Assembly: GCF_014701195.1 (NCBI RefSeq)
Contig: NZ_AP018712.1
Location: 576,501-640,500, forward strand
Direction: 5' to 3'
Source: Tepiditoga spiralis
GTDB taxonomy: Bacteria; Thermotogota; Thermotogae; Petrotogales; Petrotogaceae
DNA: 64,000 nt
This document shows positions 30,695 through 54,921 of the stretch, in pieces. The position numbers and the translations under genes are program-made. A model generated the notes under the pieces. The model had not been told where the DNA came from. It worked only from the letters and a program-made list of their open reading frames with translations, and ran no database searches. Each line of letters opens with the position of its first letter. The first letter of the stretch is position 1.

Positions 30695-30802
30695 TGTATT
30701 TTGCAAGTGAAGAATAAGCCAGGAATACAATTGAAAAATGGGCCAGGAAGGAAAAAATATGATAAACTCTTCTCAGAGAACAAGAGAGGAGTTGAAGGAA
30801 GG

Positions 30803-32347
30803 ATGATAAGATTGGGCCAAAAAAGAGAAATAATAATATTATATTTTAGAGAAAACAAATCAGAGATAAGCAGAAAAACAGGAATTAACAGAAAAACAGT
30901 AAATAAATATATAAATGAATATGAAGATGCATTAAAAGAATTTGAAAAGGTAGAAAGTAAAAAGAGTAAAGAAGAAATAATAGAAATTATAACAGGTAAA
31001 CCAAAATATAAAGTTTCAAATAGAAAACCCAGAAAAGTCACAGAAGAATTAAGAATTAAAATAGAAGAGTTAGTTAAAGCAAATGAATTAAAAAGGCAAA
31101 AAGGGTTGAGAAAACAAACTATGCCAGTTACTCAAATGTATGAAATTATTCGAGATGAAGGGTATGAGATTAGTATAGGAACAATATATAATATTGTAAA
31201 GAAATTTAATACAAAAAGAACTAAAGAGGCTTATATAAAACAAAGATATAATCCTGGAGAAATTGTTGAATTCGATTGGGGAGAAGTTAAGTTAGAAATA
31301 AATGGAATCAATAAAAAGTTTCAAATGGCAGTATTTACTTTTGCATATAGTAATTATAGATATGCGTTATTGTATGAAAAACAAAATATGGAGAGTTTTA
31401 TAGATTCACACGTAAGGTTTTTTGAACATATTGGTGGTATTAATAAAACTATTGTATATGACAATATGAAAGTTGCAATAAGAAAATTTGTAGGGCATAA
31501 CGATAGAGAGTTGACAGATGATTTAACTAAATTATCATTATATTATAAATTCGATATAAGGTTTTGTAATGTGAGAAAACCAAATGAAAAAGGTCATGTA
31601 GAAAAGAGTGTCAATGTATTGAAACAAAGAGCATTTTCAATAAAAGATAAATTTAAAAATATAGATGATGCAAATGAATTTTTGAGTTCAAGAGTCAAAT
31701 ATTTAAATGAAAATATGAAAAACACATCAAACATTAGCCCTTTAAAGTTGTTAAAAGAAGAAAAAGAATATTTAATATGCAAACCACCAAAATATGAATA
31801 TTCAATAATAAAAGAAGTTTATGTAGATAAATATTCAACTATAACTTTAAATAACTGTCATTACTCGGTACCAGTAGAATATACTAATAAATGGTTAAAG
31901 GTTAAGTTATATCCAGAAAAGATAATAATATATGATGAAAAACCTATTGCTACTCATAAAAGGTTATATGGTAATAATATGTGGAAAATAGAAATAAATC
32001 ATTATTTATCATTATTAAAAAGAAAACCTGGTGCATTGCATAGTAGTTTAGCTCTGCATCAGGTCCCACAAAAAATAAAAAAAATCTACAATAACTATTT
32101 TACCACAAAACCAAAAGAATTCATAAACTTATTAGAGTATATGTATAAAAATAATTTAAGAATAAATGATATTGAAGAAACAATTGAAAAGTTAGAACGT
32201 ATAAGTCCAAAAGATATAAGCGCTACAAAAATAAAGATACTCTATGAAAATAAAATTAATAATAATCAAAAAAATAAATATCAAGGAACAATAGAAGAAT
32301 ATTCAAGAAAACAATTGTTGCATTTAAAAGAGCTGATCAAATCATGA
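30803..32347 (+). CDS. istA: IS21-family transposase IstA
   Basis: 514 residues from the ATG at 30803 (GGAAGG upstream); a longer frame from 30575 reads through the CRISPR array and IS end and is rejected. A helix-turn-helix near the N-terminus (EISRKTGINRKTVNKY) is followed by an rve-type DDE core: EFDWGEVKLEI, VYDNMKVAIRK and EKGHVEKSVNVLK. The stop overlaps the istB start. Intact, but its partner istB is broken, so the element is probably immobile. Confidence 0.92.
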   Translation: MIRLGQKREIIILYFRENKSEISRKTGINRKTVNKYINEYEDALKEFEKVESKKSKEEIIEIITGKPKYKVSNRKPRKVTEELRIKIEELVKANELKRQKGLRKQTMPVTQMYEIIRDEGYEISIGTIYNIVKKFNTKRTKEAYIKQRYNPGEIVEFDWGEVKLEINGINKKFQMAVFTFAYSNYRYALLYEKQNMESFIDSHVRFFEHIGGINKTIVYDNMKVAIRKFVGHNDRELTDDLTKLSLYYKFDIRFCNVRKPNEKGHVEKSVNVLKQRAFSIKDKFKNIDDANEFLSSRVKYLNENMKNTSNISPLKLLKEEKEYLICKPPKYEYSIIKEVYVDKYSTITLNNCHYSVPVEYTNKWLKVKLYPEKIIIYDEKPIATHKRLYGNNMWKIEINHYLSLLKRKPGALHSSLALHQVPQKIKKIYNNYFTTKPKEFINLLEYMYKNNLRINDIEETIEKLERISPKDISATKIKILYENKINNNQKNKYQGTIEEYSRKQLLHLKELIKS

Positions 32348-33106
32348 AAAATAACAAAAATAAAATATATGAAGAAATAGAGTTTTATTCAAAAGAATTA
32401 AAGTTATCAAAATTAAAAATACATTTTAAAGAATATATAAAAGATGCAAATAATACAGAGATAAGTTATGAATTATTTTTGTATGAGATATTAAAAAAAG
32501 AATATGAAAGATTATTAGATTCAAGATTAAAAAGCAGGATAAGAACAGCAAATTTCTCACAAAAAAAATATATAGAAGATTTAGAAAAAGAATATTTACC
32601 AGAAGATGCAAGAAAAAAATTAAAAGTATTATCTACATTAGAATTTATACAAACAAATCAGAATGTAATATTATCTGGTAATCCTGGAACAGGGAAAACT
32701 CATATAGCAATAGGACTTGGTATGAAAGCTTGTATGAAAGGATTTAAAGTATTATTTACGACAATTCCATTATTAATAACTCAATTAAAAGAATCTAGAT
32801 CAAATAAAACTTTGAGAGCTTTTCAAAGTAAATTTGGAAAATATGACCTTGTAATATGTGATGAATTAGGATACATATCTTTTGATAAAGAAGGTGCTGA
32901 ATTATTATTTTCTTTATTATCTCTAAGAGCATCAAGAAAATCTACTGTAATAACAACTAATTTATCCTTTGGTGGGAAGAAATATTTAATGATCCTGTAT
33001 TATCTGCAGCTATGATTGATAGATTAACTCATAGAGCTTATATGGTCAATATGAACATAGTTATAGATTAAAAGAAACAGAAGAATTTATAAAATCTTTG
33101 GATTGA
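32344..33106 (+). pseudogene. istB: IS21 helper ATPase IstB, broken by two frameshifts
   Basis: The first 215 or so codons are intact, with Walker A SGNPGTGKTHIA and VICDELGYISF. At about 32975 the conserved TTNLSFGEWEE-type segment reads TTNLSFGGK: a small deletion shifts the frame and ends the protein at 33015. The rest of IstB (EIFNDPVLSAAMIDRLTHRAY) is readable in another frame up to about 33050. A second shift is needed to reach LKETEEFIKSLD and the natural stop at 33104-33106. IstB assists strand transfer, so loss should disable transposition. Confidence 0.85.
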
Positions 33107-33304
33107 TTGGAGGGATGCTTATAGAAAGATTGGTGAGATTATAATATTAACAAACTCTTAATGTTTCCTGAAACGTGGTTTTATTCAGCGTTTTATTTTT
33201 TTGGCCCATTTTTCAATGAGACCATAAAAAATTTTGTGTAAATAAAAAAATGAAAAACCTTCTTCTTGGGATGGTAAAATAAAACCAGGAAGGAGGTTTT
33301 TAAA

Positions 33305-34558
33305 ATGGAAAGAAGGAAAAAAGAAGAAAAAGAAGAAAGCAACATTGAAAAATTAGCAAGATTAATAGCAAGGGATCCAGAGGTAAACACAATAAAAGAT
33401 GTATATGAAAAGATAAAAGAATTAGTGGGACCGTTAATACAAGGGATGTTAGAAGCAGAATTAGAAGATGAATTAGGTTATGGGAAATACGATAAAGAAA
33501 ACAAGAAAACAGATAATTCTAGAAATGGGTACAGTTCAAAAAGAGTAAGAACAAGTGTTGGAGAAATGGAATTAAAAATACCTAGAGATAGAAAAGGTGA
33601 ATATGAGCCTAAAATAGTACCAAAGTATAAAAAAGATATCTCAGATATTGAAGGTAGAATAATAGGTATGTACGGTTTAGGATTAAGCACAAAAGATATA
33701 GTAAAGAACGTAGAGGACATATATGGTGTAGAATTATCAGCGGAAATGATAAGTAAAATAACTAATAAAATATTACCTGAAATTAGAGAATGGCAAAGCA
33801 GACCTTTAGAAGAAATATATACTTTTATGTTTATGGATGGAATAGTGTTTAAAGTAAAAGATGATGGAGAAATAATAAAAAAGACTGCATATGTTGTACT
33901 TGGTGTAAATATAGATGGATTTAAAGAAGTACTTGGTATATATATAGGTGAAATAGAATCATCAAAATTTTGGTTAAGAGTATTAAATGATTTAAAAAAT
34001 AGAGGAATAAAAGATATATTAATAGCTTCTGTAGATGGATTAACAGGTTTCCCACAAGCAATAAAAACTGCTTTCCCAGATACTATAGTACAAAGATGTA
34101 TAATACATCAAATAAGAAATACATTAAAATATGTTAGTTACAAAGATAGAAAAGAACTTGTTAATGATTTAAAAAAAGTATATAAAGCACCAAATAAAGA
34201 TATTGCCTATTCAAACTTACAAGATTTGAAAGAAAACAAATGGACTAAATACAAATTAGCATTAGAAAGTTGGGAAAAACATTGGGAAACAATATCTCCT
34301 TATTTCGATTATGGCGATGATGTAAGAAAAATAATGTACACAACAAATGTAATAGAATCATTAAATAGGCAATATAGAAAAGCAACAAAAAATAAAACAT
34401 CATTTCCAAATGACGATGCATTATTGAAAATGCTTTATTTAGCAACAATAAATGCAACAAAAAGATGGACAGCTCGTTATAGAAATTGGAGCAATGTCCT
34501 AAACGAATTATCCATCTTTTTTAATGAAAGAATTACAAAATATATCTATAATTCCTAA
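33305..34558 (+). CDS. IS256-family transposase, IS-A copy 2
   Basis: 417 residues, the same protein as at 5509 apart from Glu instead of Ala at position 2; only a few silent base differences were noticed. All catalytic regions are intact, so it could act in trans on copy 1 even though the IS-C insertion separates it from its own right end. Confidence 0.95.
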   Translation: MERRKKEEKEESNIEKLARLIARDPEVNTIKDVYEKIKELVGPLIQGMLEAELEDELGYGKYDKENKKTDNSRNGYSSKRVRTSVGEMELKIPRDRKGEYEPKIVPKYKKDISDIEGRIIGMYGLGLSTKDIVKNVEDIYGVELSAEMISKITNKILPEIREWQSRPLEEIYTFMFMDGIVFKVKDDGEIIKKTAYVVLGVNIDGFKEVLGIYIGEIESSKFWLRVLNDLKNRGIKDILIASVDGLTGFPQAIKTAFPDTIVQRCIIHQIRNTLKYVSYKDRKELVNDLKKVYKAPNKDIAYSNLQDLKENKWTKYKLALESWEKHWETISPYFDYGDDVRKIMYTTNVIESLNRQYRKATKNKTSFPNDDALLKMLYLATINATKRWTARYRNWSNVLNELSIFFNERITKYIYNS

Positions 34559-34678
34559 CATAAATATACTTTGTAACATAACAAAAAATACCTATAACAC
34601 ACAAAAATGAATATTAAATATTATAATGCTATACCTTGCAATAAAAAGTTGCAAAAGGCTATTTATTACAAAAAATTA

Positions 34679-36221
34679 GAGAGTGTAAAATATTAAGTGT
34701 ATAAGGAAAAAAAGATACAGATCTGGTGGTAAAATAAAACCAGAGGAGGTACGAAAAATGGGAAATGTACTACAGGAAATAATAAAGGAAATGGTAAGAA
34801 AAGGAGAAATCCGAACAATAAAGGATATAAAGGAATTAACAAAATCACTGACAGGAAATCTGATCCAGGAAGTACTGGAAGCGGAACTCGAAGACGAGCT
34901 GGGCTATGGAAAGTATGACAGAGAAAAGAAAAATACAGAAAATTCAAGAAATGGCTACAGGAAGAAGAATTTAAAGAGTAGTAGCGGTATGATAGAATTA
35001 ATGGTACCTCGAGACAGAAAGGGAGAATATGAACCCAAAATAGTTCCAAAGTATTCGAATGATATTTCAGAGATAGAGGAAAAAATAATAAGTTTGTACG
35101 CAAGAGGAATGACCACCAGGGATATATCTGATCAGATAATGGATTTGTACGGATTTGAAGTATCAGCTGAACTGGTGAGCAAAATAACAAATAAGCTTAT
35201 GCCATTAATAAAAGACTGGCAAGAAAGGCCATTACACGAAATATACACCTTCGTTTTCTTGGATGCAATATACTTCAACGTTAGAGAGGACGGAAGGATA
35301 GTAAAGAAGGCTGCTTATGTAATAATAGGTGTTGACATAGATGGAATTAAAGATGTGCTCGGGATATATGTTGGTGAAGTAGAAAGTGCCAAGTTTTGGA
35401 TGGGAGTACTTAACAACCTCAAAAACAGAGGAGTTAAGGACATACTTGTAGCTTCAATAGATGGTCTTTCTGGATTCGAGCAGGCTATAAATGCAACCTT
35501 CCCGCAAACTATGATACAAAGGTGCATAATCCACCAGATTAGAAACACCCTGAAATATGTTCCTCACAAGGACAGGAAAGAGTTCGCAAAGGACTTAAAG
35601 ACAATCTATACAGCACTGGATGAAAAGACAGGCTATGATAATCTAACCAATGTAATAAACAAATGGGGAGACAAGTATTACGCTTCATTGAGGAGCTGGG
35701 AGAAAAATTGGCACCTATTATCCACCTTCTTTCAGTTCTCAGACGGGGTAAGGAAGATTATGTACACCACGAACATCATAGAGTCACTTAACAGGCAATT
35801 CAGGAAGGCTACCAAGACCAAATCAATATTCCCTAATGACGATGCTGTCCTTAAAAGTTTATACCTTACTACCAAAAACGTGACAAAAAAATGGACAGCA
35901 CGGTTTCACAACTGGAACGCTGTTATTTCCGAACTGGCCATCCTTTTCGAGGAACGTCTTAAAGACTACCTCTGAAAGTAGCTTGTAATCCTAAAAAACT
36001 TAATATTTTACACTCTCGGGAGATGGGTTGTCGCCCTTTCAGTCATTGCAGTTTTTTACTGTAAAAGGTTGGTTTTACCAATTTTGCCTTATTTAATTCA
36101 TACTATTCAGGAACATTTTTTTCATTTTCTAATAACTACATTTTTTTAAGATTTTTGTCGTTGTTTTCCAATATTTATATGCTACCAGATATATCTAATA
36201 CACACTAATCTTTACAGACTC
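34679..36221 (+). mobile_element. IS256-family IS-C, copy 1 (1543 bp, nested in IS-A copy 2)
   Basis: Flanked by the exact 8-bp duplication AAAAATTA (34671-34678 and 36222-36229), and IS-A copy 1 shows the uninterrupted target. The left end GAGAGTGTAAAATATTAAGT has a perfect complement at 35998-36017, but the duplication places the true right end 204 bp further, at CTTTACAGACTC, whose complement GAGTCTGTAAAG matches the left end imperfectly. Base composition is visibly richer in G and C than the surroundings, indicating recent arrival. A copy of identical length lies at 53379. Confidence 0.92.
34758..35975 (+). CDS. IS256-family transposase, IS-C copy 1
   Basis: 405 residues, homologous to the IS-A transposase (ELEDELGYGKYDRE, PRDRKGEYEPKIVPKY, SIDGLSGFEQAI, QRCIIHQIRNTLKYV, TTNIIESLNRQFRKATK) but clearly a different element. 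Codon use includes AGG, CTC, ACC and GCC codons rare in neighbouring genes. The start follows GAGGTACGAAAA. The same protein is encoded at 53458. Confidence 0.95.
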   Translation: MGNVLQEIIKEMVRKGEIRTIKDIKELTKSLTGNLIQEVLEAELEDELGYGKYDREKKNTENSRNGYRKKNLKSSSGMIELMVPRDRKGEYEPKIVPKYSNDISEIEEKIISLYARGMTTRDISDQIMDLYGFEVSAELVSKITNKLMPLIKDWQERPLHEIYTFVFLDAIYFNVREDGRIVKKAAYVIIGVDIDGIKDVLGIYVGEVESAKFWMGVLNNLKNRGVKDILVASIDGLSGFEQAINATFPQTMIQRCIIHQIRNTLKYVPHKDRKEFAKDLKTIYTALDEKTGYDNLTNVINKWGDKYYASLRSWEKNWHLLSTFFQFSDGVRKIMYTTNIIESLNRQFRKATKTKSIFPNDDAVLKSLYLTTKNVTKKWTARFHNWNAVISELAILFEERLKDYL

Positions 36222-36375
36222 AAAAATTATACTAAAAACTTCTAAAATTTACTCTTAAAGCATATTTCTTTATAGTCGATAATTCTTATGGAAATACTTT
36301 AAAAATAATAACTAATTTTATTTATTTTTACCTTCCAAGAAGAGCCGTTTACACAAAATTTTTTATGCTACCTTT

Positions 36376-36654
36376 TCAATTGTAATTTGGCTTATTCTTC
36401 ACTTGCAAAATACAAAATTTAGATGTTTTTTTTATTTCACCTATAATAAGTTTATCTTTTGATTTGTATACTAAATCAAATTTAACTCTTCCAAAAGATA
36501 TTTCTTTTTTCTTCTTTTGATAAACTTGTTCATGTAAAAATCTTCCATAATCTATATTCTCATCATATTGATCCGGAATTATATTTCTTGACATAAACCA
36601 AACTTCTCTTTTACATATTTTATAATACCAAATTAAAGTTCCTGTTTGTTTCAT
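36376..36654 (-). pseudogene. cas4: Cas4 nuclease, truncated after 80 codons by IS21
   Basis: The ATG at 36654 follows GAAGGGAT. The retained part (36415-36654) is a RecB-like Cas4: TGTLIWYYKICKREVWFMSRN with the first Cys, GRFLHEQVY, VKFDLVY and GEIKKTSKF, which carry the His, Asp and Glu-x-Lys catalytic residues. The frame then enters the IS21 end (CILQVKNKPNYN) and stops at 36376. Missing are the Q-x3-Y motif and the three C-terminal cysteines of the iron-sulfur site; Cas4 of this type is normally about 165 residues. Almost certainly inactive. Downstream cas1 and cas2 are absent. Confidence 0.9.
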
Positions 36655-36667
36655 ATATATCCCTTCT

Positions 36668-38935
36668 TTATATAATAAATTCATTAGATTTATTAATAAA
36701 TCCTATATTTTTATCATAGTAAAGATCTATCATTTCTTTTGTTAAAATTTTTATATTTCCATATTCTTCAAAATTTTTTATTGAGTTAAAATTTTCTTTA
36801 GTAATTATTAATGAGATTGTATAATCATAAAACTCTTTTTTTATTTTTAAAAATGATTCTTTTCTTTTATAAAAATCATTTATAGATAAAATATTTTTAA
36901 AAACTTTTAGTATTTTTGATGCTTTTTCATCTTTTTCAATAAAAATAGATACACTTAAAGTATTTTCTATTAAGTTAAAATTTTTATATATTTTATCGTA
37001 ATTTAACTTTTTTATATTTTCTAAAATTTTTTTTGACATATCTGTTGACATATTATTGTGTATTTTTTTATAATAAATTTCTAAATATTCTAACAAATCT
37101 TTTTCATATATGATTTCAATATCTCTTAATACTTCTTTTGTTGGAATTAATACTACTTTTTTATATATGTATTCAAAATCTTCTTTTTTACTACTTTTAT
37201 TTCTTTTTAAAGAAAATAATTTTAAAAGTCCCATTTGATTTTTATTGTTCCTATTGCATCTACCTGCTGTTTGTATTATATTATCAAGTGGTGCTAAATC
37301 TCTGTAAATAACATCCAAATCTATATCTACACCAGCTTCAATTAATTGAGTAGATACTACTATTTTTCTTTTTTTGGAAGTTTTTATATAATTTATTCTT
37401 TCTAATCTTTCAATTGGAGTTATATTAGTAGAAAGATATGTTATTTTTTCATTTATGTTTTCCTTTAATAGCTTAAAAAATTCAGTACTACTCTTTATAG
37501 TATTAAAAACAAATAAAAAATCTTTCTGTGGATTTTCCTTTAAATCTTTTAATGCTATTTCAGAAATATCCTCTAAATAAATTGTATTTAAATTATTTAT
37601 CTTTGATATTTTATATCTTGAAAATTTTGAAAAATATTTTTTCTTATCATTTATAAGAGGAAAAATATTTATTTTATCTTCTTTAAATATAAAAGGCATT
37701 GTTGCCGTCATTATTATTATTTTTATATTAAATATTTTCGTTATTTTTTCAAATATATCCTTTATCAAATTCCAATAAATATAGGGTAATGTTTGAATTT
37801 CATCTAAAATTATTATACTATTTGAAATATTATGAAACTTTCTTAATGTCAAATTTTGATTAGTTATTATTGAATTAAATAATTGCCAAAATGTTGTTAT
37901 TATAAGTGGTTTATCCCAATTTTCTATTAAAAATTGAGCTTTTTCACCTTTATAAAAATCATCATTATTTTTATATTCTATTTCAGACAAATGATGATGT
38001 ACTGTAAGATAATTTTCTGGAACTAATTCATTAATTTTAAGCATTTCAACTGCAATTTTTGCAGTTTGATCTACTATTGATGTATAAGGTAATGCATATA
38101 TTATTTTATTGTACTGTGAATTTAAAGAATTAAAAGCTAAATTAAATGCATTCAAAGTTTTTCCTATTCCTGTTGGAAGATTTAAAGAAAATATTTTTGC
38201 ATCATTTAAATTAGTAAAAGATTCTAAATAAGCACTTTCTCTCAATTCATTTAATTCATTTGATACTACATTTTTAAATTTAATAGCTTTATATTTATTA
38301 ACAAAATTTTTGACATCTGAAAAATAAATATTTTTTATTTTTTTATGAAAAATAACTTCTGTTTTATCTGAATAAGTTAATATTGAAAAAAAGAAATTTA
38401 AAATAAAATAATATTCATCTTTAAAAGACTGTTCATCTAAATCATATAAAAAATCAATATAGTCTTTTATTTCAAAGTATTTAATTTCGTTTTTTATATT
38501 TAAATCTTTAAAATTTAAATTATCCCATATTTTTTTTAAATGTTCATCTTCAATAAATATTGCACTATCAAAATCTTCCAAATTTCCATGATGCTTTTTT
38601 ATTGATTCGAATACAATTAAAGATAATATCTTTGAATTTGTATCTTTATATGTTTTTAACCCTGCATACAAAGCAGATATTAATGAATGTTTTCTTAAAT
38701 CTTTTGAAACACTTATTTCTTCATTTTCTATCGATTCTTTTAAATATTGCTGAAAAAAAGCTGTTGATTTTCCTAAATCATGAAAAAATAACATATTTTT
38801 TAAAGCAACTTCAATATGCTTTTTTTCAAAAGGAAATAACAGCTTTTTTTTATTTTTATAAACATCAACACCTATATTTAAAACACCTTTTAAATGATCT
38901 ATCAATTTAATATTTTCATGAGAGTAAAGCATCAA
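36668..38935 (-). CDS. cas3: CRISPR-associated helicase/nuclease Cas3 (type I-B)
   Basis: 755 residues. The N-terminal HD nuclease has H52-D53 in FFHDLGKS, H83 in RKHSL and H115-H116 in KKHHGN. The SF2 helicase has Walker A LPTGIGKT at about 253-260, the DEIQ box at 378-381, IIIMTATMPF, and the C-terminal AGVDIDLDVIYRD and QTAGRCNRN motifs. Recruited by Cascade, it unwinds and degrades target DNA. All key residues are present. The start overlaps the cas5 end by four bases; ATG 38932 is a close alternative. Confidence 0.95.
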   Translation of the reverse strand: MMLYSHENIKLIDHLKGVLNIGVDVYKNKKKLLFPFEKKHIEVALKNMLFFHDLGKSTAFFQQYLKESIENEEISVSKDLRKHSLISALYAGLKTYKDTNSKILSLIVFESIKKHHGNLEDFDSAIFIEDEHLKKIWDNLNFKDLNIKNEIKYFEIKDYIDFLYDLDEQSFKDEYYFILNFFFSILTYSDKTEVIFHKKIKNIYFSDVKNFVNKYKAIKFKNVVSNELNELRESAYLESFTNLNDAKIFSLNLPTGIGKTLNAFNLAFNSLNSQYNKIIYALPYTSIVDQTAKIAVEMLKINELVPENYLTVHHHLSEIEYKNNDDFYKGEKAQFLIENWDKPLIITTFWQLFNSIITNQNLTLRKFHNISNSIIILDEIQTLPYIYWNLIKDIFEKITKIFNIKIIIMTATMPFIFKEDKINIFPLINDKKKYFSKFSRYKISKINNLNTIYLEDISEIALKDLKENPQKDFLFVFNTIKSSTEFFKLLKENINEKITYLSTNITPIERLERINYIKTSKKRKIVVSTQLIEAGVDIDLDVIYRDLAPLDNIIQTAGRCNRNNKNQMGLLKLFSLKRNKSSKKEDFEYIYKKVVLIPTKEVLRDIEIIYEKDLLEYLEIYYKKIHNNMSTDMSKKILENIKKLNYDKIYKNFNLIENTLSVSIFIEKDEKASKILKVFKNILSINDFYKRKESFLKIKKEFYDYTISLIITKENFNSIKNFEEYGNIKILTKEMIDLYYDKNIGFINKSNEFII

Positions 38936-39651
38936 AACAACACTACTTTTTCATTTATTTCTGGTATATCAATATACTCTTTTATTTCTAGATTTATTGA
39001 TTTTCCAGTTCTTTCAATTAAAAAATCTCTTGATTCAACTAAAACTCTATTAATATTAAATTCAGTTGGAAGATGTATTTTTAAATATTTTTTTTGTGTA
39101 TCAAAAAAATTTATTTTTTCTACAAAGTCAATAGGAATTATTGAAGTTAATTCTTTTCCTTTGTTTTTTACAACATAATCAAATTCACCAACATATTTAA
39201 AATTTGCTAAACACTCTGAAATACCCATTGATACAGTATAAATTGATTTATGTTGTTTTATATTTTGTATCAATTGTTCAAACAAACTATTATTTTTCAT
39301 TGATACAAAAACTCTATACTTTGGATTTTTTAAAAATTCAAATCTTATTTGTGTTCTTGGTGCTTTTTTCCTTGAATTCATTCTTGCAAATAATGGAACA
39401 TATCTTGTATTTATCAAATTTTCTGGTATTAAAATTTTTTGTATAGAGTTTTTTATAGAAATTCCAATTTTAGTTTGTTTATCTTTATAATATTTTAAAT
39501 ATTCATTTTTATCTAATCCTAAAATAGCAGATAAAATACCATAAACTGTTGTTTTTGGTGGAACTGGAAACGTCAAAGGCGATGTTGTTGTATATGGAAC
39601 TTTGAAGTGACCAAAGTCACTCCAAAGGTCAAAAACTAATATCTTATCCAT
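38932..39651 (-). CDS. cas5: CRISPR-associated protein Cas5 (type I-B)
   Basis: 239 residues. The Cas5 RAMP signature is the N-terminal LVFDLWSDFGHFKVPYTTTSPLTFPVPPKTTVYGILSAILGL. It binds the crRNA 5' handle in Cascade. In I-B and related systems Cas5 is not the processing enzyme. It lies four bases behind cas7 and overlaps cas3, so all are probably made from one transcript. Confidence 0.93.
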   Translation of the reverse strand: MDKILVFDLWSDFGHFKVPYTTTSPLTFPVPPKTTVYGILSAILGLDKNEYLKYYKDKQTKIGISIKNSIQKILIPENLINTRYVPLFARMNSRKKAPRTQIRFEFLKNPKYRVFVSMKNNSLFEQLIQNIKQHKSIYTVSMGISECLANFKYVGEFDYVVKNKGKELTSIIPIDFVEKINFFDTQKKYLKIHLPTEFNINRVLVESRDFLIERTGKSINLEIKEYIDIPEINEKVVLF

Positions 39652-39654
39652 AAT

Positions 39655-40551
39655 TTATATCTCCAATTTTTCCCAAGTTGATGGTATTTCTCCAATTATA
39701 TTTAAAAACTTGTCTACTTTATATGATATTTTATCAATTTTTTCTTCTTCTTCTTCAAATACTTCTAATAATTTTGAAATATCTAATGTAAAATCTTCTA
39801 ATTTTCTTATTTTATTTTCAAGTTTTTCAGTTTTTATTTTTATATATTTATCTAAATCTCCTATAAAATAACCTTTTTCTTTATAATCAACTTTTATTAA
39901 TAACCTTGGCATTTGCCCAAACTTTGAACGGCTAATTAAATTTTTTGTTCCATTCCACATTCCATCTAACAATAAATCAACATCTTCTTCAGATAAACTT
40001 GTGTGTTTTGCTGCTGTTTCATTTATAATTCCATGGAAAGCAATAAATGAATATGGCAATATATATTCTTCTCTAAAAGTATTTTGTTTTGTACCTTGTT
40101 TTGAAGCAAATGCTCCAGTTCCTTTTATATGCTGGAGTTCAACTTGATGCAATGAACGCCCTACCTTAAATTGAATAGGTCCAGTATAAGTTATTGAATC
40201 TTTTGAAAGTGGTATTACTCCACCAAACAATCTAACATCTATACATTTATTCAAAATATCATTAGCATTATTTTCAAAGTTTCCTGCTCTTTTTTTACCA
40301 TCTTGAATATACATATTTTTATCATCATATATAATTTCTCTAACAAAAATATCTTTGTTATTTTCTCCATTATAACCTTTATATTCATATAAATAATCTC
40401 TTATAGTTCTTTTTAACCTAACATCAGTTACAAAGTTTATACTAGTTTCTTCATCTATTCTTGGTTTATTGTTATCTAAAGGATCACCATTTGGATTTGC
40501 ATCTGTAATATCATAACAAAATAATAATTCACTTCTTTTTTCAATGTACAT
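39655..40551 (-). CDS. cas7: CRISPR-associated protein Cas7 (Csh2-like, type I-B)
   Basis: 298 residues from the ATG at 40551, which is preceded by GAGGGGGA; a start 11 codons upstream lies inside cas8. Typical Cas7b sequence: LLFCYDITDANPNGDP, RIDEETSINFVTDVRLKRTIRDYL, FGGVIPL, TGPIQFKVGRSLHQVE and the C-terminal SKFGQMPRLL. It forms the crRNA-coating backbone of Cascade. Confidence 0.95.
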   Translation of the reverse strand: MYIEKRSELLFCYDITDANPNGDPLDNNKPRIDEETSINFVTDVRLKRTIRDYLYEYKGYNGENNKDIFVREIIYDDKNMYIQDGKKRAGNFENNANDILNKCIDVRLFGGVIPLSKDSITYTGPIQFKVGRSLHQVELQHIKGTGAFASKQGTKQNTFREEYILPYSFIAFHGIINETAAKHTSLSEEDVDLLLDGMWNGTKNLISRSKFGQMPRLLIKVDYKEKGYFIGDLDKYIKIKTEKLENKIRKLEDFTLDISKLLEVFEEEEEKIDKISYKVDKFLNIIGEIPSTWEKLEI

Positions 40552-40552
40552 A

Positions 40553-42355
40553 TTAATCCCCCTCATTCTTAAAGTTTTTTGCAAGTGTCATTCCAAGAAC
40601 AAAATAAAAACTCATTTCATCAACTGTATATTTACTAAAATTACTATTTAACATATATTTTGATATTTCCGTTTCTAAACTTCTGTAATAATTTTCATCA
40701 TATTCTTCCAATTTGTTTATTATTTCTGGTAAAAGTCTTTTAGCTATTTTTTCATTTATTTTTAAACCATTTAACCGTGCCATAAATGGTTTTGATTTTC
40801 TATTTTTATACTGAATATTTAATAAAAATTCAGTTAATACTCCTTCTAAAAATAAAGCTTTTTTTGTTTCTGTATCTAATATTTTTGCTTGTTCAAAAAA
40901 CTCTTCATACACAGTTTCTACCCCCTTAACAAAATTAAATTTTTTATCTAACAGGTTTAATTCATTCAAGTATAAAACTATTTTAAAAGCTTTTAAAACA
41001 TTTAAATCATAAAAACCATTATTTAAAAATTCACTTCTAATTTTTTTCATAAAATTGTTCAACAAAAAATTATAAGAAATATTTTTATCTATAAAAATAT
41101 TATTTAAAATATCTAAAAAATATTTATTAAATTTTCCATCTATTTTGTTATTTAGAAAAAATTCTCGTATAAAATAAAAAGAAAAATTAAAATTTACTTC
41201 ATCACCTTTTTTTAAAATTATAGGTTTAAAAAAACTCTCTTTTCCAATTAGATCAACTGTTTTTTGTGCAGTAACTAATTTATTCAATCGTGAAGGTGGT
41301 ATCTCTGAAAGTTCTAACAATATATTAAATGCATTGTTAGTTTTTTCAAAAAAAATAAAATTAAAAAGAATACTGTTATTTTCTTTTGAGAGAATTTCTA
41401 AAATTTTTTCTTCTGTTTGAGTAATTTTTCTTCCAGAAATTTTTTTAGAAGAAAATTCAGAATATCTACTTTTTATTCTATTAATCAAATTTTTTAAAAG
41501 AACATCATTTTCTACAATTAATTGTGGAATTAATAAATAATTAAAGCCACAAAATTTATACTTTAAATTATTCATTAGAAATTTTTTACCTCTTTCAAGA
41601 GTTACAGCACAATCTAAACAAACAGGATAATTTTTCCAAGCATTTTCTTTTTTAAAACCTCCAGTTACCATTCCTCGTTTATCAACAGTATAAAATTGAA
41701 ATGTTGACACAAAGCCATAAACTTCATCTTTTTCTTTTTTACATATATAACAATATTTATCCTTTGATTTACTTACTTTTCCACCTTTAATATAAAAATT
41801 TTTATAAGCATCTTCTTTACTTTTTAAAAATAAGTTTTTAAATTCATCAAGTTCTCCAACATAATAAAATTTATTATCTTTTTTAAATACAAAAGTTACT
41901 ATACCTCCACCCTCAATATTTCCATTATTATTTAAAAAATTATTATTTTTTAAATAATCAAAAAACTCTTCTTTTATTTTTTCTTCTGACTTATTAAAAG
42001 ACATTTCAAGATTTTGAAAAAATAAAAGTTCATCACTACTAAAATTTTTTTCATTATTTTTTATTATATTTTTAAAAATTTGACTTATTTTATTTGAAAA
42101 AACTTTTTCAAAAGTTGTAATTTTTGAAGTTGGCGTTTTATCTGGACCATTTGAAAAACCTTTTTTATAAAAATACTTCAATTTTTTATCTGAATCAAAC
42201 TCTTCATAATCTATATTTAAATATTTAAATTCATCTATATCAAAAATAATTTTAAAAACATGTTTATAATTTGTACCTATATCCTCTATAAAATCATTTA
42301 AAAAATTATCATCTTCAGGTATAATTTTTCCTATTTCATAAAGAGCTTCTAACAT
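40553..42355 (-). CDS. cas8b: Cascade large subunit Cas8b (TM1802/Csh1 family)
   Basis: 600 residues, typical for Cas8b. Two CxxC pairs form a probable zinc finger, KYCYICKKEK and NYPVCLDCAVTLERGKKF, about 45 residues apart. The helical C-terminal half ends KAIAxR-like NEKIAKRLLPEIINKLEEY and FYFVLGMTLAK. In I-B this subunit recognises the PAM. AAGGAGG precedes the ATG. No break or missing part is visible. Confidence 0.85.
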   Translation of the reverse strand: MLEALYEIGKIIPEDDNFLNDFIEDIGTNYKHVFKIIFDIDEFKYLNIDYEEFDSDKKLKYFYKKGFSNGPDKTPTSKITTFEKVFSNKISQIFKNIIKNNEKNFSSDELLFFQNLEMSFNKSEEKIKEEFFDYLKNNNFLNNNGNIEGGGIVTFVFKKDNKFYYVGELDEFKNLFLKSKEDAYKNFYIKGGKVSKSKDKYCYICKKEKDEVYGFVSTFQFYTVDKRGMVTGGFKKENAWKNYPVCLDCAVTLERGKKFLMNNLKYKFCGFNYLLIPQLIVENDVLLKNLINRIKSRYSEFSSKKISGRKITQTEEKILEILSKENNSILFNFIFFEKTNNAFNILLELSEIPPSRLNKLVTAQKTVDLIGKESFFKPIILKKGDEVNFNFSFYFIREFFLNNKIDGKFNKYFLDILNNIFIDKNISYNFLLNNFMKKIRSEFLNNGFYDLNVLKAFKIVLYLNELNLLDKKFNFVKGVETVYEEFFEQAKILDTETKKALFLEGVLTEFLLNIQYKNRKSKPFMARLNGLKINEKIAKRLLPEIINKLEEYDENYYRSLETEISKYMLNSNFSKYTVDEMSFYFVLGMTLAKNFKNEGD

Positions 42356-42367
42356 ACAAAATCCTCC

Positions 42368-43096
42368 TTAAATTTTTTCAATAAACCCATACCCCATAGA
42401 ATTTTTCGAACCTAAACCTGTATTTAAAGCAACATTTAAAAGTTTTGGATTTCCAGTTAATTCATATTCTCCCATCCATCCTTTTATTATAAATCCCTTA
42501 TAATTAGTAACTACTTCTTTCAAATTTTTAACATGTCTTATATTTAATCTTTTATCATTTATTTCTTCGTTATAATAAGAACTATACTTTTTTATTATAT
42601 TTTTTTTCAAAATCTTATAAAACTTTTCTTCATATGGAGTATAATAATAAGTTTTATTTTTATTATTATCTTTAAAAGTACTATAAACTACTACTGGAGA
42701 CAAAGATTTAACTCTTAAATACTCTGTATTAAATTCATTTTTTTCTCCAGATATTTCTTCGATAACAACCTTTTGATTATTTATATATAATTCATTATTA
42801 AACAATAAAGTTTTAGATATATATTTCATAAATTCAGTGTTTATAGATGTAATAGAAAAAATAGCAAAATCATAAAACTTAATTTTTTTAACCTCTTTAT
42901 TATATTTAAAATTTCCATTTAATCTTGAAAAAGAATATAATTTATAATTTCGATTTTTATATTTAAAACCAACATCATGAATAAATTTTTGATAAGTTTC
43001 ATCATTTATTAATTTTAAAACAATTGCTTGAAGTATATGATTGTAATTAATAGGTATTTCTAATGTATCAAAAGAAAATTTTATATTTAATCTCAA
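42368..43096 (-). CDS. cas6: CRISPR RNA endonuclease Cas6
   Basis: 242 residues. RAMP fold with an N-terminal PINYNHILQAIVLKLI in which His20 may be catalytic, and the glycine-rich C-terminal loop NTGLGSKNSMGYGFIE of Cas6. It cleaves pre-crRNA within the repeat. TTG start after AAGGAGG. First gene of the minus-strand cas operon; divergent from array 1. Confidence 0.92.
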   Translation of the reverse strand: MRLNIKFSFDTLEIPINYNHILQAIVLKLINDETYQKFIHDVGFKYKNRNYKLYSFSRLNGNFKYNKEVKKIKFYDFAIFSITSINTEFMKYISKTLLFNNELYINNQKVVIEEISGEKNEFNTEYLRVKSLSPVVVYSTFKDNNKNKTYYYTPYEEKFYKILKKNIIKKYSSYYNEEINDKRLNIRHVKNLKEVVTNYKGFIIKGWMGEYELTGNPKLLNVALNTGLGSKNSMGYGFIEKI

Positions 43097-43127
43097 TTTA
43101 CTTCCTCCTTGTTTTTCTCTAACATTA

Positions 43128-43157
43128 ATTTTAACTCAAAGTAACTTTAAAAGTCAA
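43128..43157 (-). promoter_or_regulatory. Promoter of the cas operon
   Basis: On the minus strand TTGACT (complement of 43152-43157) and TAAAAT (complement of 43128-43133), spacer 18 bp, 32 bases before the cas6 TTG. Confidence 0.7.
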
Positions 43158-43298
43158 GTGCATATTTAAATTTATATTTATACATAAAAATTTAATATTT
43201 TTATATCAAAAAAACATTATTACTTTACATTTAATAAATCAAATGATAAATTAATACTTAAAAAATAAGAAGAAGATATAAAATAAAAAATTGAAATT

Positions 43299-43507
43299 AT
43301 CGTCAACCACCAATGTGTCTATAAACACCTGGGGTCGACGATTTCATAAACAGGCATAAATAAAAGAAAGTTACTGTTTTTTAATGTTTTAGATATAATT
43401 TGACAACATATATCTTTTGTAGTATAATTTTATTGCCTATTAATTGAAATTATTTTATAATAATAGTTTTATGCAACACCTATATGAAAAAATATTTTTA
43501 TTAATGG
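43299..43507 (+). promoter_or_regulatory. CRISPR array 1 leader with consensus promoter and a hairpin
   Basis: AT-rich leader directly before the first repeat. A consensus promoter, TTGACA (43400-43405), 17-bp spacer, TATAAT (43423-43428), points into the array and would start transcription about 70 bp before repeat 1. Upstream, 43299-43342 forms an interrupted stem: ATCGTC/GACGAT, ACC/GGT, CCA/TGG and GTGT/ACAC. Its role (protein or IHF-like binding, terminator, small RNA) is unknown. The rest of 43158-43298 shows nothing clear. Confidence 0.8.
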
Positions 43508-44179
43508 GTTCTTATTCTACCTATGAGGAATTGAAACGTGAAAGAAAAACATATAACAGAAGAGAAATACCAAGTTCGTTCTTATTCTACCTATGAGGAA
43601 TTGAAACTCAACAAATTTATAGGAAGTGATTTAATAGTTAGAAGTTCTTATTCTACCTATGAGGAATTGAAACCTAATAAATTGTATTTTATCATTTACA
43701 TTCAGTTCTTTGTTCTTATTCTACCTATGAGGAATTGAAACTACTTAAGACAATAAATTATACTTAAAATTAAATAGTTCTTATTCTACCTATGAGGAAT
43801 TGAAACCTGGTGTTTCAATGAAAAGTGGATCTTCTTCTAATTCGGTTCTTATTCTACCTATGAGGAATTGAAACGATGAAACAGAATTTAAAAATTTATT
43901 AGATGTAGTGGGTTCTTATTCTACCTATGAGGAATTGAAACCGTCATCGCTTTCTAAAAATGTTTTCATTACTGATAGTTCTTATTCTACCTATGAGGAA
44001 TTGAAACAGTATAAAATGGCTCTATGGGCTTAATTTAAGCTTAAGTTCTTATTCTACCTATGAGGAATTGAAACAATGGGATGGAAAAGGTAACTGTTAT
44101 CTCTATGACTAGTTCTTATTCTACCTATGAGGAATTGAAACGGAGAAAAGTTGATTTCTTTACTTATAGTGATATTATA

Positions 44180-44344
44180 GTTCTTATTCTACCATTTACT
44201 TGTACCGAGCGAAATGGTTTTTCGCTCATAAGGAATTGAAACCTTCATCTATAACTTGTTCGTCTTCTAATAAAAATTTTCGTTCATATTCTACCATTTA
44301 CTTGTACCGAGCGAAATGGTTTTTCGCTCATAAGGAATTGAAAC
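44180..44344 (+). repeat. 165-bp extended repeat-spacer-repeat cassette, copy 1
   Basis: Extended repeat 11, spacer 11 (39 bp) and extended repeat 12. Base-for-base identical to 44650-44814. The first repeat starts GTTCTTATT like the short repeats, the second GTTCATATT like the distal long ones, suggesting that the cassette was copied into a short repeat by recombination. Confidence 0.9.
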
Positions 44345-44649
44345 TAATCATTTAATACAAAACGAAAAGAATGAAAACGTGTTCTTATTCTACCTATGAG
44401 GAATTGAAACGATACAAATATATTAAAAGATTTCTTTATAGATTTGTGTTCTTATTCTACCTATGAGGAATTGAAACTTAAATAATATACATGATTCATT
44501 AAATAAATCATTCTGGTTCTTATTCTACCTATGAGGAATTGAAACTACTAAAGACCAAATTAAAAAGGTTTTGCCTACAGCGTTCTTATTCTACCTATGA
44601 GGAATTGAAACCTATTATAAATACTTGATAATTCCCTCAAAGTATTTAT

Positions 44650-44814
44650 GTTCTTATTCTACCATTTACTTGTACCGAGCGAAATGGTTTTTCGCTCATA
44701 AGGAATTGAAACCTTCATCTATAACTTGTTCGTCTTCTAATAAAAATTTTCGTTCATATTCTACCATTTACTTGTACCGAGCGAAATGGTTTTTCGCTCA
44801 TAAGGAATTGAAAC
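44650..44814 (+). repeat. 165-bp extended repeat-spacer-repeat cassette, copy 2
   Basis: Extended repeats 17 and 18 around spacer 17, identical to 44180-44344. Different spacers flank each copy. The same spacer recurs a third time at 44914-44952 between slightly different extended repeats. Confidence 0.9.
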
Positions 44815-45354
44815 GGATGATCCATATTGGTACGAAAAATAGATTTCCAAGTTCATATTCTACCATTTACTTGTACCGAGCGGGATGGTTTTTCGCTCAT
44901 AAGGAATTGAAACCTTCATCTATAACTTGTTCGTCTTCTAATAAAAATTTTCGTTCATATTCTACCATTTACTTAGTACCGAGCGGGATGCTTTTCCGCT
45001 CTTGAGGAATTGAAACTCTTCTAATTCATCTTGAATATTGAATTGATATAAAGGTTCATATTCTACCATTTACTTGTACCGAGCGAAATGGTTTTTCGCT
45101 CATGAGGAATTGAAACTTTTCAATTGATAAATTTTCATTATCTAAATCAATAGTTCATATTCTACTATATACTAGTACCGAGCGGGATGCTTTTCCGCTC
45201 TTGAGGAATTGAAACTCTTCTAATTCATCTTGAATATTGAATTGATATAAAGGTTCATATTCTACCATATACTAGTACCGAGCGGGACGGTTTTCCGCTC
45301 ACGAGGAATTGAAACATAAAATAAAATCATAAAGTTGATTAGGGAGGTTATAAA

Positions 45355-45897
45355 ATGAGTATTAATTATACTGATAAAGAACAACAAATTATTAATACCT
45401 TAATGTCATTTACTTTTTTATGGGAACTTCATAATTTAAAGTTTTTAGAATCTAAATGTTATGCTGATTTAAAATTTAAAGATCGTTTTGTTCATGAACA
45501 GATAAAATCAATTGGAATTATGAATAATGGAATGATTCCAGTTATTTTATATATGATGTTAATAATTCCAAAAGAATTATTTGATAATACAAAATATTCA
45601 GAAAATTTTAAAGAAATAAATAAACAAATATCTAATTTAAAAAATATAGAAATAATAAAATCTACATATAAAAGTGATGAAAAAAACATTAATTACATAA
45701 GACATTTTAGAAATGCAGTTGCACATATGAATATAAAATGTGAAAAAACAGTTGTTGTATTTGAGGATAAAAATAAAAAAGAAAATTTTAAAATAGAGGT
45801 TAGTTATAAAGCACTTGGTGAAATAGTTGGTTTTTTTTATAAATTCTATGCTGAACTTATTGAAGAATATAAGGAAAAATATAAAAATAAACAGTAA
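45355..45897 (+). CDS. HEPN-motif protein immediately downstream of CRISPR array 1
   Basis: 180 residues, not assigned to a named family. Mostly helical, with one long hydrophobic stretch (GMIPVILYMMLIIP). It carries R119-N-A-V-A-H124, the Rx4H motif of HEPN ribonucleases, in HFRNAVAHMNI. AGGGAGG lies eight bases before the ATG. The start is 40 bp behind the last repeat with no terminator between, so array read-through could express it. A HEPN RNase could act as toxin or abortive-infection effector; alternatively it is a non-catalytic HEPN protein. Confidence 0.65.
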   Translation: MSINYTDKEQQIINTLMSFTFLWELHNLKFLESKCYADLKFKDRFVHEQIKSIGIMNNGMIPVILYMMLIIPKELFDNTKYSENFKEINKQISNLKNIEIIKSTYKSDEKNINYIRHFRNAVAHMNIKCEKTVVVFEDKNKKENFKIEVSYKALGEIVGFFYKFYAELIEEYKEKYKNKQ

Positions 45898-46082
45898 AAT
45901 GCAAAAACCAATCAATATATAAAAATAGTATAAAATAAAATTTTTGATAAAAAATACTGTATAAATTAATAACAAATTTATATGATTTATTTTATTAGAG
46001 TTATTTTTTCTTTTATTTTATCCATTTTTCAAATTAAATTATGTTATAATTTATTTATGAAGAAGTATATGGGGTGATTAAA

Positions 46083-47864
46083 ATGAAAAAAAGACTTCCA
46101 ATAGGAAGAAGTGACTTCAAATCGTTAATTGAAGATAATATGTACTTTGTAGATAAAAGTATGTTAATCAAAGAAGTTATTGAAAGTGGTGATGTTTTAT
46201 TAATAACAAGGCCAAGAAGGTTTGGGAAAACTCTCAGTCAATCTATGATGAAGTACTTTTTTGATATTACTCAAAATAACGAACACCTCTTTAAAAATTT
46301 AAAGATATACAAAGAAAAAAATATAATAGAAAAACATTTAAATAAACATCCAGTTATATACATCACCTTTAAAGATTTAAAGTCTAATAACTTAAAAAAG
46401 ATGCATGCTTTATTAACAATGGAACTTTCAAGATTATATACAAAACATGAATATGTTTTTGAAATATTGAGTGAAAAGGAAAAGATTGTATTTAAAGAAA
46501 TAATGTTAGAAACAGCAGATGATGCTAAATATGAAAACTGTATAAGAAGTTTATCTGAATATATGGAAAGATACTATGGTAAAAAGGTAATAATATTAAT
46601 AGATGAATACGACACTCCCATTCAACAAGCTTACTTATACGGATACTATGATGAAATAATATCTTTAATTGGTAACTTATTTGGCATGGCTTTAAAAGAC
46701 AATGTATACCTTGAAAAAGCAGTTCTTACTGGTATAACAAGAGTTTCTAAAGAAAGCATCTTTACTGGTGTGAATAACTTAGAAGTTTCTACTGTATTAA
46801 ATGAACTATTCAATGATAAGTATGGTTTAACTAAAGAAGAAGTTGAAGAAACATTGAAGTATTATGAACTTGAATATGAAGAAAGTGAAGTTATAGATTG
46901 GTACAATGGTTATAATTTTGGTGGTGTTGAAATTTACAATCCTTTTTCTATAGTAACTCTTGCAAAGAATAAAGGTAAAATAAGACCATATTGGATGAAT
47001 ACGAGTGGAAACTACTTAGTTAAACAATTAATAAAACAAGGAAGTGCTGAATTAAAAGATAAAATAGAAAAACTAATAAATGGTGAAGAAATTGAAAGTA
47101 CAATAAATGAAACTATGGTTTATGGAGACTTAAATAACAACTTAGAAGAGTCTGTATGGACATTATTTTTATTCAGCGGATATTTAAAATGGACAAAAAA
47201 TATAAATCATGATTATGAAAGATATACTTTAAAGATACCAAATAAAGAAGTAAAAATATTTTATAATAAAACTGTAGTATCTATGCTTGAAGAAGAAAGA
47301 ATAAAGCTCAATAATATATTAATAAATTTAATAAATGGACATATAGAAGAGTTTAAAGAAGACTTTCAAAAATTAACTATTAATACATTGAGTTACTTTG
47401 ATGTTAGCGGAGAAGAACCAGAAAGATTTTATCATGGACTAATACTTGGAATGAGCGTTGGTTTGAAAGAAAAGTATATAATAAAGAGTAATAGAGAAAC
47501 AGGACTTGGAAGAGCAGATGTTATTTTAATTCCAAAAGATAAAACAGATAAAGGAATAATAATAGAGTTTAAAAAGTTTTATAAAAACGAAAAAACACTA
47601 TTAAATAGTGCTAAAAATGGATTGAAACAAATAAATGAAAAGAAGTATGAAGAAGAGATAAAAGATCATGGAATAAATGATATAATAAAAGTTTCAATAG
47701 CTTTTGATAAAAAAGAGGTTGAAATTGTTAGTAATTTAGATAAAGATGTTGAATTAACAGAGATAGAAAAAGTAGCAAAGAACATGATTGAAAATGGAGT
47801 TGATATAGAGTTTATATCTAAAATGACAAATTTGTCTATTGAAAAAATTAAAAATTTAATATAA
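46083..47864 (+). CDS. AAA-ATPase-like protein with PD-(D/E)XK nuclease domain, copy 3
   Basis: 593 residues with intact P-loop, Walker B and nuclease motifs. The block at residues 115-160 is unique to this copy, while the block at 405-435 matches the copy at 7002 and not that at 28496, so the three copies are mosaics. ATG 46083 follows GGGGTGA. Its extended -10 TGTTATAAT (46042-46050) resembles that of copy 2. It lies between the HEPN gene and a convergent DUF554 gene. Confidence 0.9.
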   Translation: MKKRLPIGRSDFKSLIEDNMYFVDKSMLIKEVIESGDVLLITRPRRFGKTLSQSMMKYFFDITQNNEHLFKNLKIYKEKNIIEKHLNKHPVIYITFKDLKSNNLKKMHALLTMELSRLYTKHEYVFEILSEKEKIVFKEIMLETADDAKYENCIRSLSEYMERYYGKKVIILIDEYDTPIQQAYLYGYYDEIISLIGNLFGMALKDNVYLEKAVLTGITRVSKESIFTGVNNLEVSTVLNELFNDKYGLTKEEVEETLKYYELEYEESEVIDWYNGYNFGGVEIYNPFSIVTLAKNKGKIRPYWMNTSGNYLVKQLIKQGSAELKDKIEKLINGEEIESTINETMVYGDLNNNLEESVWTLFLFSGYLKWTKNINHDYERYTLKIPNKEVKIFYNKTVVSMLEEERIKLNNILINLINGHIEEFKEDFQKLTINTLSYFDVSGEEPERFYHGLILGMSVGLKEKYIIKSNRETGLGRADVILIPKDKTDKGIIIEFKKFYKNEKTLLNSAKNGLKQINEKKYEEEIKDHGINDIIKVSIAFDKKEVEIVSNLDKDVELTEIEKVAKNMIENGVDIEFISKMTNLSIEKIKNLI

Positions 47865-53378: not shown

Positions 53379-54921
53379 GAGAGTGTAAAATATTAAGTGT
53401 ATAAGGAAAAAAAGATACAGATCTGGTGGTAAAATAAAACCAGAGGAGGTACGAAAAATGGGAAATGTACTACAGGAAATAATAAAGGAAATGGTAAGAA
53501 AAGGAGAAATCCGAACAATAAAGGATATAAAGGAATTAACAAAATCACTGACAGGAAATCTGATCCAGGAAGTACTGGAAGCGGAACTCGAAGACGAGCT
53601 GGGCTATGGAAAGTATGACAGAGAAAAGAAAAATACAGAAAATTCAAGAAATGGCTACAGGAAGAAGAATTTAAAGAGTAGTAGCGGTATGATAGAATTA
53701 ATGGTACCTCGAGACAGAAAGGGAGAATATGAACCCAAAATAGTTCCAAAGTATTCGAATGATATTTCAGAGATAGAGGAAAAAATAATAAGTTTGTACG
53801 CAAGAGGAATGACCACCAGGGATATATCTGATCAGATAATGGATTTGTACGGATTTGAAGTATCAGCTGAACTGGTGAGCAAAATAACAAATAAGCTTAT
53901 GCCATTAATAAAAGACTGGCAAGAAAGGCCATTACACGAAATATACACCTTCGTTTTCTTGGATGCAATATACTTCAACGTTAGAGAGGACGGAAGGATA
54001 GTAAAGAAGGCTGCTTATGTAATAATAGGTGTTGACATAGATGGAATTAAAGATGTGCTCGGGATATATGTTGGTGAAGTAGAAAGTGCCAAGTTTTGGA
54101 TGGGAGTACTTAACAACCTCAAAAACAGAGGAGTTAAGGACATACTTGTAGCTTCAATAGATGGTCTTTCTGGATTCGAGCAGGCTATAAATGCAACCTT
54201 CCCGCAAACTATGATACAAAGGTGCATAATCCACCAGATTAGAAACACCCTGAAATATGTTCCTCACAAGGACAGGAAAGAGTTCGCAAAGGACTTAAAG
54301 ACAATCTATACAGCACTGGATGAAAAGACAGGCTATGATAATCTAACCAATGTAATAAACAAATGGGGAGACAAGTATTACGCTTCATTGAGGAGCTGGG
54401 AGAAAAATTGGCACCTATTATCCACCTTCTTTCAGTTCTCAGACGGGGTAAGGAAGATTATGTACACCACGAACATCATAGAGTCACTTAACAGGCAATT
54501 CAGGAAGGCTACCAAGACCAAATCAATATTCCCTAATGACGATGCTGTCCTTAAAAGTTTATACCTTACTACCAAAAACGTGACAAAAAAATGGACAGCA
54601 CGGTTTCACAACTGGAACGCTGTTATTTCCGAACTGGCCATCCTTTTCGAGGAACGTCTTAAAGACTACCTCTGAAAGTAGCTTGTAATCCTAAAAAACT
54701 TAATATTTTACACTCTCGGGAGATGGGTTGTCGCCCTTTCAGTCATTGCAGTTTTTTACTGTAAAAGGTTGGTTTTACCAATTTTGCCTTATTTAATTCA
54801 TACTATTCAGGAACATTTTTTTCATTTTCTAATAACTACATTTTTTTAAGATTTTTGTCGTTGTTTTCCAATATTTATATGCTACCAGATATATCTAATA
54901 CACACTAATCTTTACAGACTC
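53379..54921 (+). mobile_element. IS256-family IS-C, copy 2 (1543 bp)
   Basis: Same length and, by eye, the same sequence as 34679-36221, including the internal perfect inverted end repeat and the 204-bp tail. Left flank GGTAAGGA and right flank AAATATTT do not match, so this copy has no target duplication: its flanks have been rearranged since insertion. Both copies point the same way. Confidence 0.92.
53458..54675 (+). CDS. IS256-family transposase, IS-C copy 2
   Basis: 405 residues, identical in protein sequence to that at 34758. Intact mutator-type DDE transposase with GC-rich codon use compared with neighbouring genes. Two identical copies point to very recent duplication or gene conversion. 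Confidence 0.95.
   Translation: MGNVLQEIIKEMVRKGEIRTIKDIKELTKSLTGNLIQEVLEAELEDELGYGKYDREKKNTENSRNGYRKKNLKSSSGMIELMVPRDRKGEYEPKIVPKYSNDISEIEEKIISLYARGMTTRDISDQIMDLYGFEVSAELVSKITNKLMPLIKDWQERPLHEIYTFVFLDAIYFNVREDGRIVKKAAYVIIGVDIDGIKDVLGIYVGEVESAKFWMGVLNNLKNRGVKDILVASIDGLSGFEQAINATFPQTMIQRCIIHQIRNTLKYVPHKDRKEFAKDLKTIYTALDEKTGYDNLTNVINKWGDKYYASLRSWEKNWHLLSTFFQFSDGVRKIMYTTNIIESLNRQFRKATKTKSIFPNDDAVLKSLYLTTKNVTKKWTARFHNWNAVISELAILFEERLKDYL

Follow-up and report, generated by a model that had tools for sequence, protein, structure and literature searches.

The window analysed here is a 64,000-nt stretch (25.7% G+C) of the Tepiditoga spiralis genome, which is assembled as a single contig of 2,502,404 bases and is the sole representative of its genus among the genomes compared. 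The window contains a type I-B CRISPR-Cas locus. The operon cas6–cas8b (TM1802/Csh1)–cas7 (Csh2)–cas5–cas3 occupies positions 36668–43096 on the minus strand and, by Pfam and NCBIfam models, encodes the type I-B effector set (TIGR01877, TIGR02556/TIGR02591, TIGR02590, TIGR02592 and TIGR01587/TIGR01596). Between cas6 and the main CRISPR array lies a leader (43100–43507, plus strand), in which a promoter scan predicts a sigma-70-like promoter, TTGACA-17-TATAAT, at 43400–43428, matching 12 of 12 consensus positions. By eye, the leader also contains an imperfect inverted repeat (ATCGTC...GACGAT, 43299–43345), and a similar-looking one is found at 1785–1835 of L051, in the leader of an array of G012.

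The main array (43508–45315, plus strand) runs rightwards from this leader and comprises 23 repeats and 22 spacers, 19 of them distinct. Instead of the uniform repeat of ~30 nt expected of type I-B, it contains 14 repeats of 30 nt and 9 extended repeats of 63–64 nt; the tag end (ATTGAAAC-type) is retained in all 23. The terminal repeat, R23 (45253–45315, plus strand), is itself extended and bears the hairpin GAGCGGGACGGTTTTCCGCTC. A gene for a HEPN-domain protein (45355–45897, plus strand; PF18736, E = 5e-8) starts 40 nt past this last extended repeat, has its own ribosome-binding-like stretch upstream, and is possibly a toxin or defence gene linked to the array end. Flanking the whole CRISPR region are direct copies of an AAA-ATPase/PD-(D/E)XK gene (28487–30277 and 46074–47864), 89% identical over 596 amino acids.

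On the other side of the operon, cas4 (36415–36654, minus strand; PF01930, E = 1.3e-22) is truncated, being cut after 80 codons by the end of an IS21 element (30695–36414, plus strand; ends TGTATTTTGCAAGTGAAGAATAAGCCA) that contains two IS256-type transposase genes. The far end of the same element cuts into the remnant of a second array (30385–30694, minus strand), consisting of two extended repeats, Q4 (30385–30447) and Q3 (30487–30549), one short repeat, Q2 (30586–30615), and an extended Q1 interrupted at 30694/30695. Extended and short repeats are thus mixed in this array too, and Q3 and Q2 share an array-specific start, GTTATTATTCTACC. Two open reading frames of 405 aa, at 34758–35975 and 53458–54675, each with an opposite-strand shadow frame of the same size, are probably two copies of one IS256-type element.

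The IS21 element stands where cas4–cas1–cas2 and the front of the second array would be expected. Besides the truncation of cas4, a search of the genome for Cas1 gave no match in the window and three matches elsewhere, near arrays with different repeats; from the gene order, cas2 also appears to be missing. Many type I-B loci lack the adaptation genes or share them, and the assignment to type I-B by effector genes therefore stands. The loss looks secondary and IS21-linked: because cas1 and an array follow the operon in L049, from a relative with the same cas8b family, cas4–cas1–cas2 and the front of the second array have most likely been deleted here. Acquisition by the locus's own genes would then most likely have ended, and any later change in the array is likely to have come about through recombination, unless the Cas1–Cas2 of another locus, as is conceivable, acts on the main array in trans.

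The short repeat reads GTTCTTATTCTACC-T-ATGAGGAATTGAAAC. Inspection of the two forms side by side indicates that in the extended repeat the middle T is replaced by ~34 nt, without a clean duplication, and that this stretch ends in a hairpin with an 8-bp stem (GAGCGAAA...TTTCGCTC and variants). The most likely origin of the extended repeat would be just such a replacement, with a hairpin-bearing stretch of ~34 nt substituted for a single central T. A covariance model of the insert finds the extended form at 12 places in the T. spiralis genome, all of them inside the main or the second array, and none outside. Nor was the extended form encountered elsewhere: blastn with the extended repeat recovered the T. 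spiralis genome alone among 101 genomes, and the covariance model gave credible matches in that genome alone among 198 (one match in G061, with E = 0.028 and covering half of the model, was taken as chance). A pattern for double-length units, which detects repeats ending in GGRATTGAAAC, likewise picked out this genome alone among 103 genomes of the phylum and 390 relatives (the latter including the former), so that extended repeats of that kind were not seen in the 389 others. A search of plasmids with the repeat and a search of viral contigs with the exact hairpin pattern gave no match. An ‘extended unit’ pattern did hit three viral contigs, all with non-CRISPR repeats that look protein-coding, and these were set aside. 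Literature searches for inserted or double-length CRISPR repeats brought up nothing matching by title or abstract, subscription papers being incompletely covered.

This distribution bears on the idea that the extended part is a small mobile palindrome, of the REP or MITE kind, that hops into CRISPR repeats by itself. The insertion site is identical in both arrays, and in the second array a filled repeat (Q3) sits beside an empty one (Q2), both with the same left end, as such hopping would leave them. REP and MITE elements also consist of a short hairpin present in several copies per genome; the hairpin here, however, has no copy outside CRISPR repeats, as all 12 covariance-model matches fall within the two arrays, and neither a target-site duplication nor terminal repeats are evident. 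We therefore regard independent mobility as improbable.

The stem itself is well preserved. In an alignment of nine distinct copies, 71 of the 72 pair cells hold standard pairs, and in three of the eight stem pairs both partners have changed. Of 500 shuffles, none matched the paired percentage or the covariation score, and 5 attained the count of such two-sided changes. When seven distinct hairpins are taken as plus-strand RNA, the strand on which the array reads, 55 of 56 pairs hold, compared with 48 of 56 for the minus strand, and one stem pair is G-U in seven of the nine sequences. Folding predictions, made at 37 and 48 °C, give the inserted hairpin a pair probability of 0.93–0.99; for the short repeat, they support the Cas6 stem only weakly, with mean pair probabilities of 0.17 at 37 °C and 0.15 at 48 °C. 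The pairing pattern, drawn from copies that are related sequences, is suggestive of selection on the transcript. Palindrome correction at the DNA level might also maintain such a stem, and the persistent G-U pair points the other way.

How the long form spread along the array can be framed in terms of ruler-type integrases, in which, according to the accessible part of PMC6895254, lengthening or shortening the repeat upstream of its ruler element displaces the second integration site accordingly. If this behaviour extends to the repeats described here, the insert would lie ahead of the 3′ portion by which the integrase places its second cut, and Cas1–Cas2 could have copied the long form with each new spacer. 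On a tentative reading, to which we give a low probability, the hairpin is a passenger confined to CRISPR repeats: having entered the leader-proximal repeat, it would be copied by the cell's own Cas1–Cas2 at each acquisition, thanks to its position upstream of the ruler element, and would be selected as an RNA hairpin in the 3′ handle of the crRNA, in line with the two-sided stem changes and the tolerance of G-U on the crRNA strand.

The two repeat forms are not simply derived from one another. No single-block deletion in any of the nine extended repeats yields either of the short repeats, the best leaving two to three mismatches; a derivation of the short repeats by simple deletion, which leaves at least two mismatches in all nine, was therefore dropped, and the short block cannot have come from the extended block by plain loss. 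Short repeats of this type from relatives carry TACCTAT in eight of eight cases. Since no single-block deletion leads from the extended form and the relatives share this motif, the short form is, as judged from these sequences, the old form of the repeat, and both lineages coexist in the array. The relatives' TACCTATGAGGAATTGAAAC-type 30-nt arrays (L049, L051, L054–L059 and also L035) are of the same type as the short repeats here, lack the hairpin insert and have main-array unit lengths of 62–71 nt, and the cas8b family of this locus is common to the genomes of L035, L049 and L051. Lengthening of a distal repeat has a partial parallel among them: in G012, the second array likewise has, at its far end (L051, 2223–2350), an extended, irregular repeat of ~49 nt and a degenerate last repeat. 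The extra stretch of this repeat, which occurs once and has no evident hairpin, resembles a partial copy of its own 3′ part, and other routes to a longer distal repeat are thus open to this repeat type.

Within the main array, the ordinary block of 30-nt repeats lies on the leader side and the presumably older block of 63-nt repeats on the far side. At their border, R17 begins at its 5′ end like a short repeat and continues as an extended one, as a join predicts, and it can therefore be read as the block join, with T5 as the one diagnostic base. The main array is thus probably a recombinant of the two blocks, joined at R17.

Two spacers occur more than once, and the copies reported in the preliminary description were confirmed by sequence comparison. 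A cassette of 165 bp at 44180–44344 is identical, letter for letter, to one at 44650–44814 on the same strand, 470 bp away. The first copy consists of the chimeric extended repeat R11, spacer A and the extended repeat R12, and sits amid short repeats; the second consists of R17, spacer A and R18 at the border between the short and extended blocks, and is the probable original. Identity terminates precisely at the repeat edges, with no shared base past either end, and the neighbouring spacers differ on the left (44142–44179 versus 44612–44649) as well as on the right (44345–44380 versus 44815–44850). Spacer A (CTTCATC..., 39 nt) is present three times, at 44243–44281, 44713–44751 and 44914–44952, the third copy (plus strand) being preceded by R19 and followed by R20. 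Spacer B (TCTTCTAATTC..., 37 nt) is present twice, at 45017–45053 and 45216–45252, both on the plus strand. All duplicates have the same orientation and lie within the main array, which gives three extra copies in total; identity over 37–39 nt between spacers, each bounded by repeats, is not due to chance. The first repeat of each cassette had also been described as having the 5′ start of a short repeat. Both do begin with GTTCTTATTCTACC, as the short repeats do; the resemblance, though, comes down to a single diagnostic base, T5, in place of the A5 that the remaining extended repeats of this array carry. As the left end of the cassette lies within 14 nt shared with the short repeat, a chimeric repeat is expected in the first copy whichever of the two is the original.

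The preliminary description had proposed searching the phages for the repeated spacers; the whole array gave no match against phages, a 28-nt stretch of spacer A gave none against viral contigs, and the 19 distinct spacers had no off-array match in their own genome better than E = 0.006.

The flanks of the duplicated spacers indicate where the copies were joined. Around the copies of spacer A in differing context, identity reaches 29 nt leftwards and 22 nt rightwards, and around the two copies of spacer B 43 and 16 nt, respectively; all ends of these shared flanks fall within repeats. The clearest case is R20 (44953–45016, plus strand; 64 nt), which separates spacers A and B. Its 22-nt prefix is that of R12, R19 and R21, its 43-nt suffix is that of R22, which likewise precedes spacer B, and because prefix and suffix together cover all 64 nt, with an overlap of one base, R20 is a mosaic that joins two repeat types. 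The join is one base out of register at nucleotides 21–22, six bases ahead of the hairpin stem.

With joins inside repeats and donor repeat variants carried along with the spacers, the duplications have very probably arisen by recombination between repeats within this type I-B array. Two earlier suggestions are borne out by the position of the junctions: that copying moved a block with extended repeats into a short repeat, or out of one, and that acquisition at the leader end does not explain the copies. For each of the three extra copies (spacer A at 44243 or 44713, spacer A at 44914, and spacer B at 45017 or 45216), one repeat would have been swapped for a repeat–spacer–repeat unit copied from elsewhere in the array. 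Such an event may have been replication misalignment with template switching, or unequal crossover followed by deletion, and conversion within repeats belongs with these among the candidate routes; duplication of a larger block and subsequent deletion would give the same end product. At the junctions of the first cassette copy, the sequence shared with the short repeat amounts to just 14 bp (5′) and 12 bp (3′), which is short for a RecA-type exchange and would favour template switching.

The same junctions weigh against repeated capture of the same spacer by Cas1–Cas2, whether ectopically or by the Cas1–Cas2 of another locus. The genome does encode three Cas1 proteins elsewhere, and the accessible text of PMC8047081 reports ectopic insertion into inner repeats. 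An insertion of this kind duplicates the acceptor repeat, however, so that spacer A should lie between two short repeats and not between two extended ones, as found. Re-acquisition is contradicted because, after Cas1–Cas2 insertion, the new spacer would stand between two copies of its acceptor repeat, and the repeats on the two sides of these spacers are not both acceptor copies. In addition, the copies of spacer B have 43 nt of the preceding repeat in common, and all copies of either spacer have exactly identical ends, at 39 or 37 nt. This explanation is therefore extremely unlikely.

Duplication of the cassette by assembly error also has to be considered, as short reads are easily misassembled over two identical stretches of 165 bp that lie 470 bp apart. 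We think it very improbable. The genome forms one contig, and differing repeats surround the third copy of spacer A as well as the two copies of spacer B, so the array has been rearranged regardless of the cassette; copies in differing repeats of one array argue against a simple duplication in the assembly.

A further proposal, compatible with recombination between repeats, is that the hairpin of the extended repeats promotes it, replication stalling there and the new strand jumping to another repeat. Of the four distinct spacers with an extended repeat on either side, two are duplicated, compared with none of the 15 others (Fisher p = 0.035), all duplicated spacers thus having extended flanks; the join in R20, out of register by one base, lies close before the stem; and, when folded as single-stranded DNA, extended repeats exceeded their shuffles in stability in two of three cases (z = -3.0 and -2.5; -1.5 for the third, compared with -0.2 for the short repeat). 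On the other hand, age and length of homology (63 versus 30 bp) account equally well for the bias towards extended flanks, since the extended-flanked units are also the oldest and have the longest repeats, which makes hairpin, length and age inseparable here, and the junction in R20 is the only one resolved to a few bases. Hairpin-free arrays of relatives also hold duplicates. The hairpin is therefore not required, and the idea that it is needed for, or causes, movement of the cassette is unsupported; a contribution to duplication is possible, although we consider a promoting role unlikely.

The baseline for this comparison is 21 hairpin-free arrays with plain repeats of ~30 nt, from T. spiralis and other genomes (omitting L051 1969–2345, L054 14799–15412 and, in L062, a 90-bp repeat of non-CRISPR appearance), which hold 17 extra identical copies among 780 spacers. 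Duplicates or near-duplicates occur in 5 of the 21, as isolated displaced copies and as blocks. Several duplicated or near-duplicated spacers are present in L057, L058, L062 and L063, and in L062 neighbouring spacers are nearly identical, differing by a few bases. With 3 extra copies among 22 spacers, duplications are denser in the main array than in the compared arrays (Fisher p = 0.015, the copies not being independent), and some factor may raise the rate here.

Copying of spacers within arrays is known from other systems. As far as the accessible text of both sources goes (PMC11472070 and PMC8047081), the known cases match those here: the identical spacers lie within one array and away from the leader, their junctions fall inside repeats, and either a single unit or a block is involved. 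In the survey made with SpacerPlacer, ~3% of spacers were candidates for duplication and duplications made up 86% of non-polar events (PMC11472070, accessible part). The available portion of the review PMC8047081 treats recombination between repeats or slippage as the favoured hypothesis, and notes that direct data on the mechanism of duplication are lacking. The main array differs from these cases in that the repeats beside its copies fall into two length classes and vary in sequence among several types, through which the joins can be read directly.

The duplicated spacers are thus ordinary and mostly explained, and the hairpin-bearing, double-length repeat confined to two arrays is the more unusual part of this locus. 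Heterogeneous repeats make the recombination joins in a CRISPR array readable base by base, which uniform repeats mask. The extended repeats, for their part, raise the questions of whether a type I integrase and Cas6 can handle a double-length repeat with a stable hairpin in its middle, and whether that hairpin has any effect on the crRNA.
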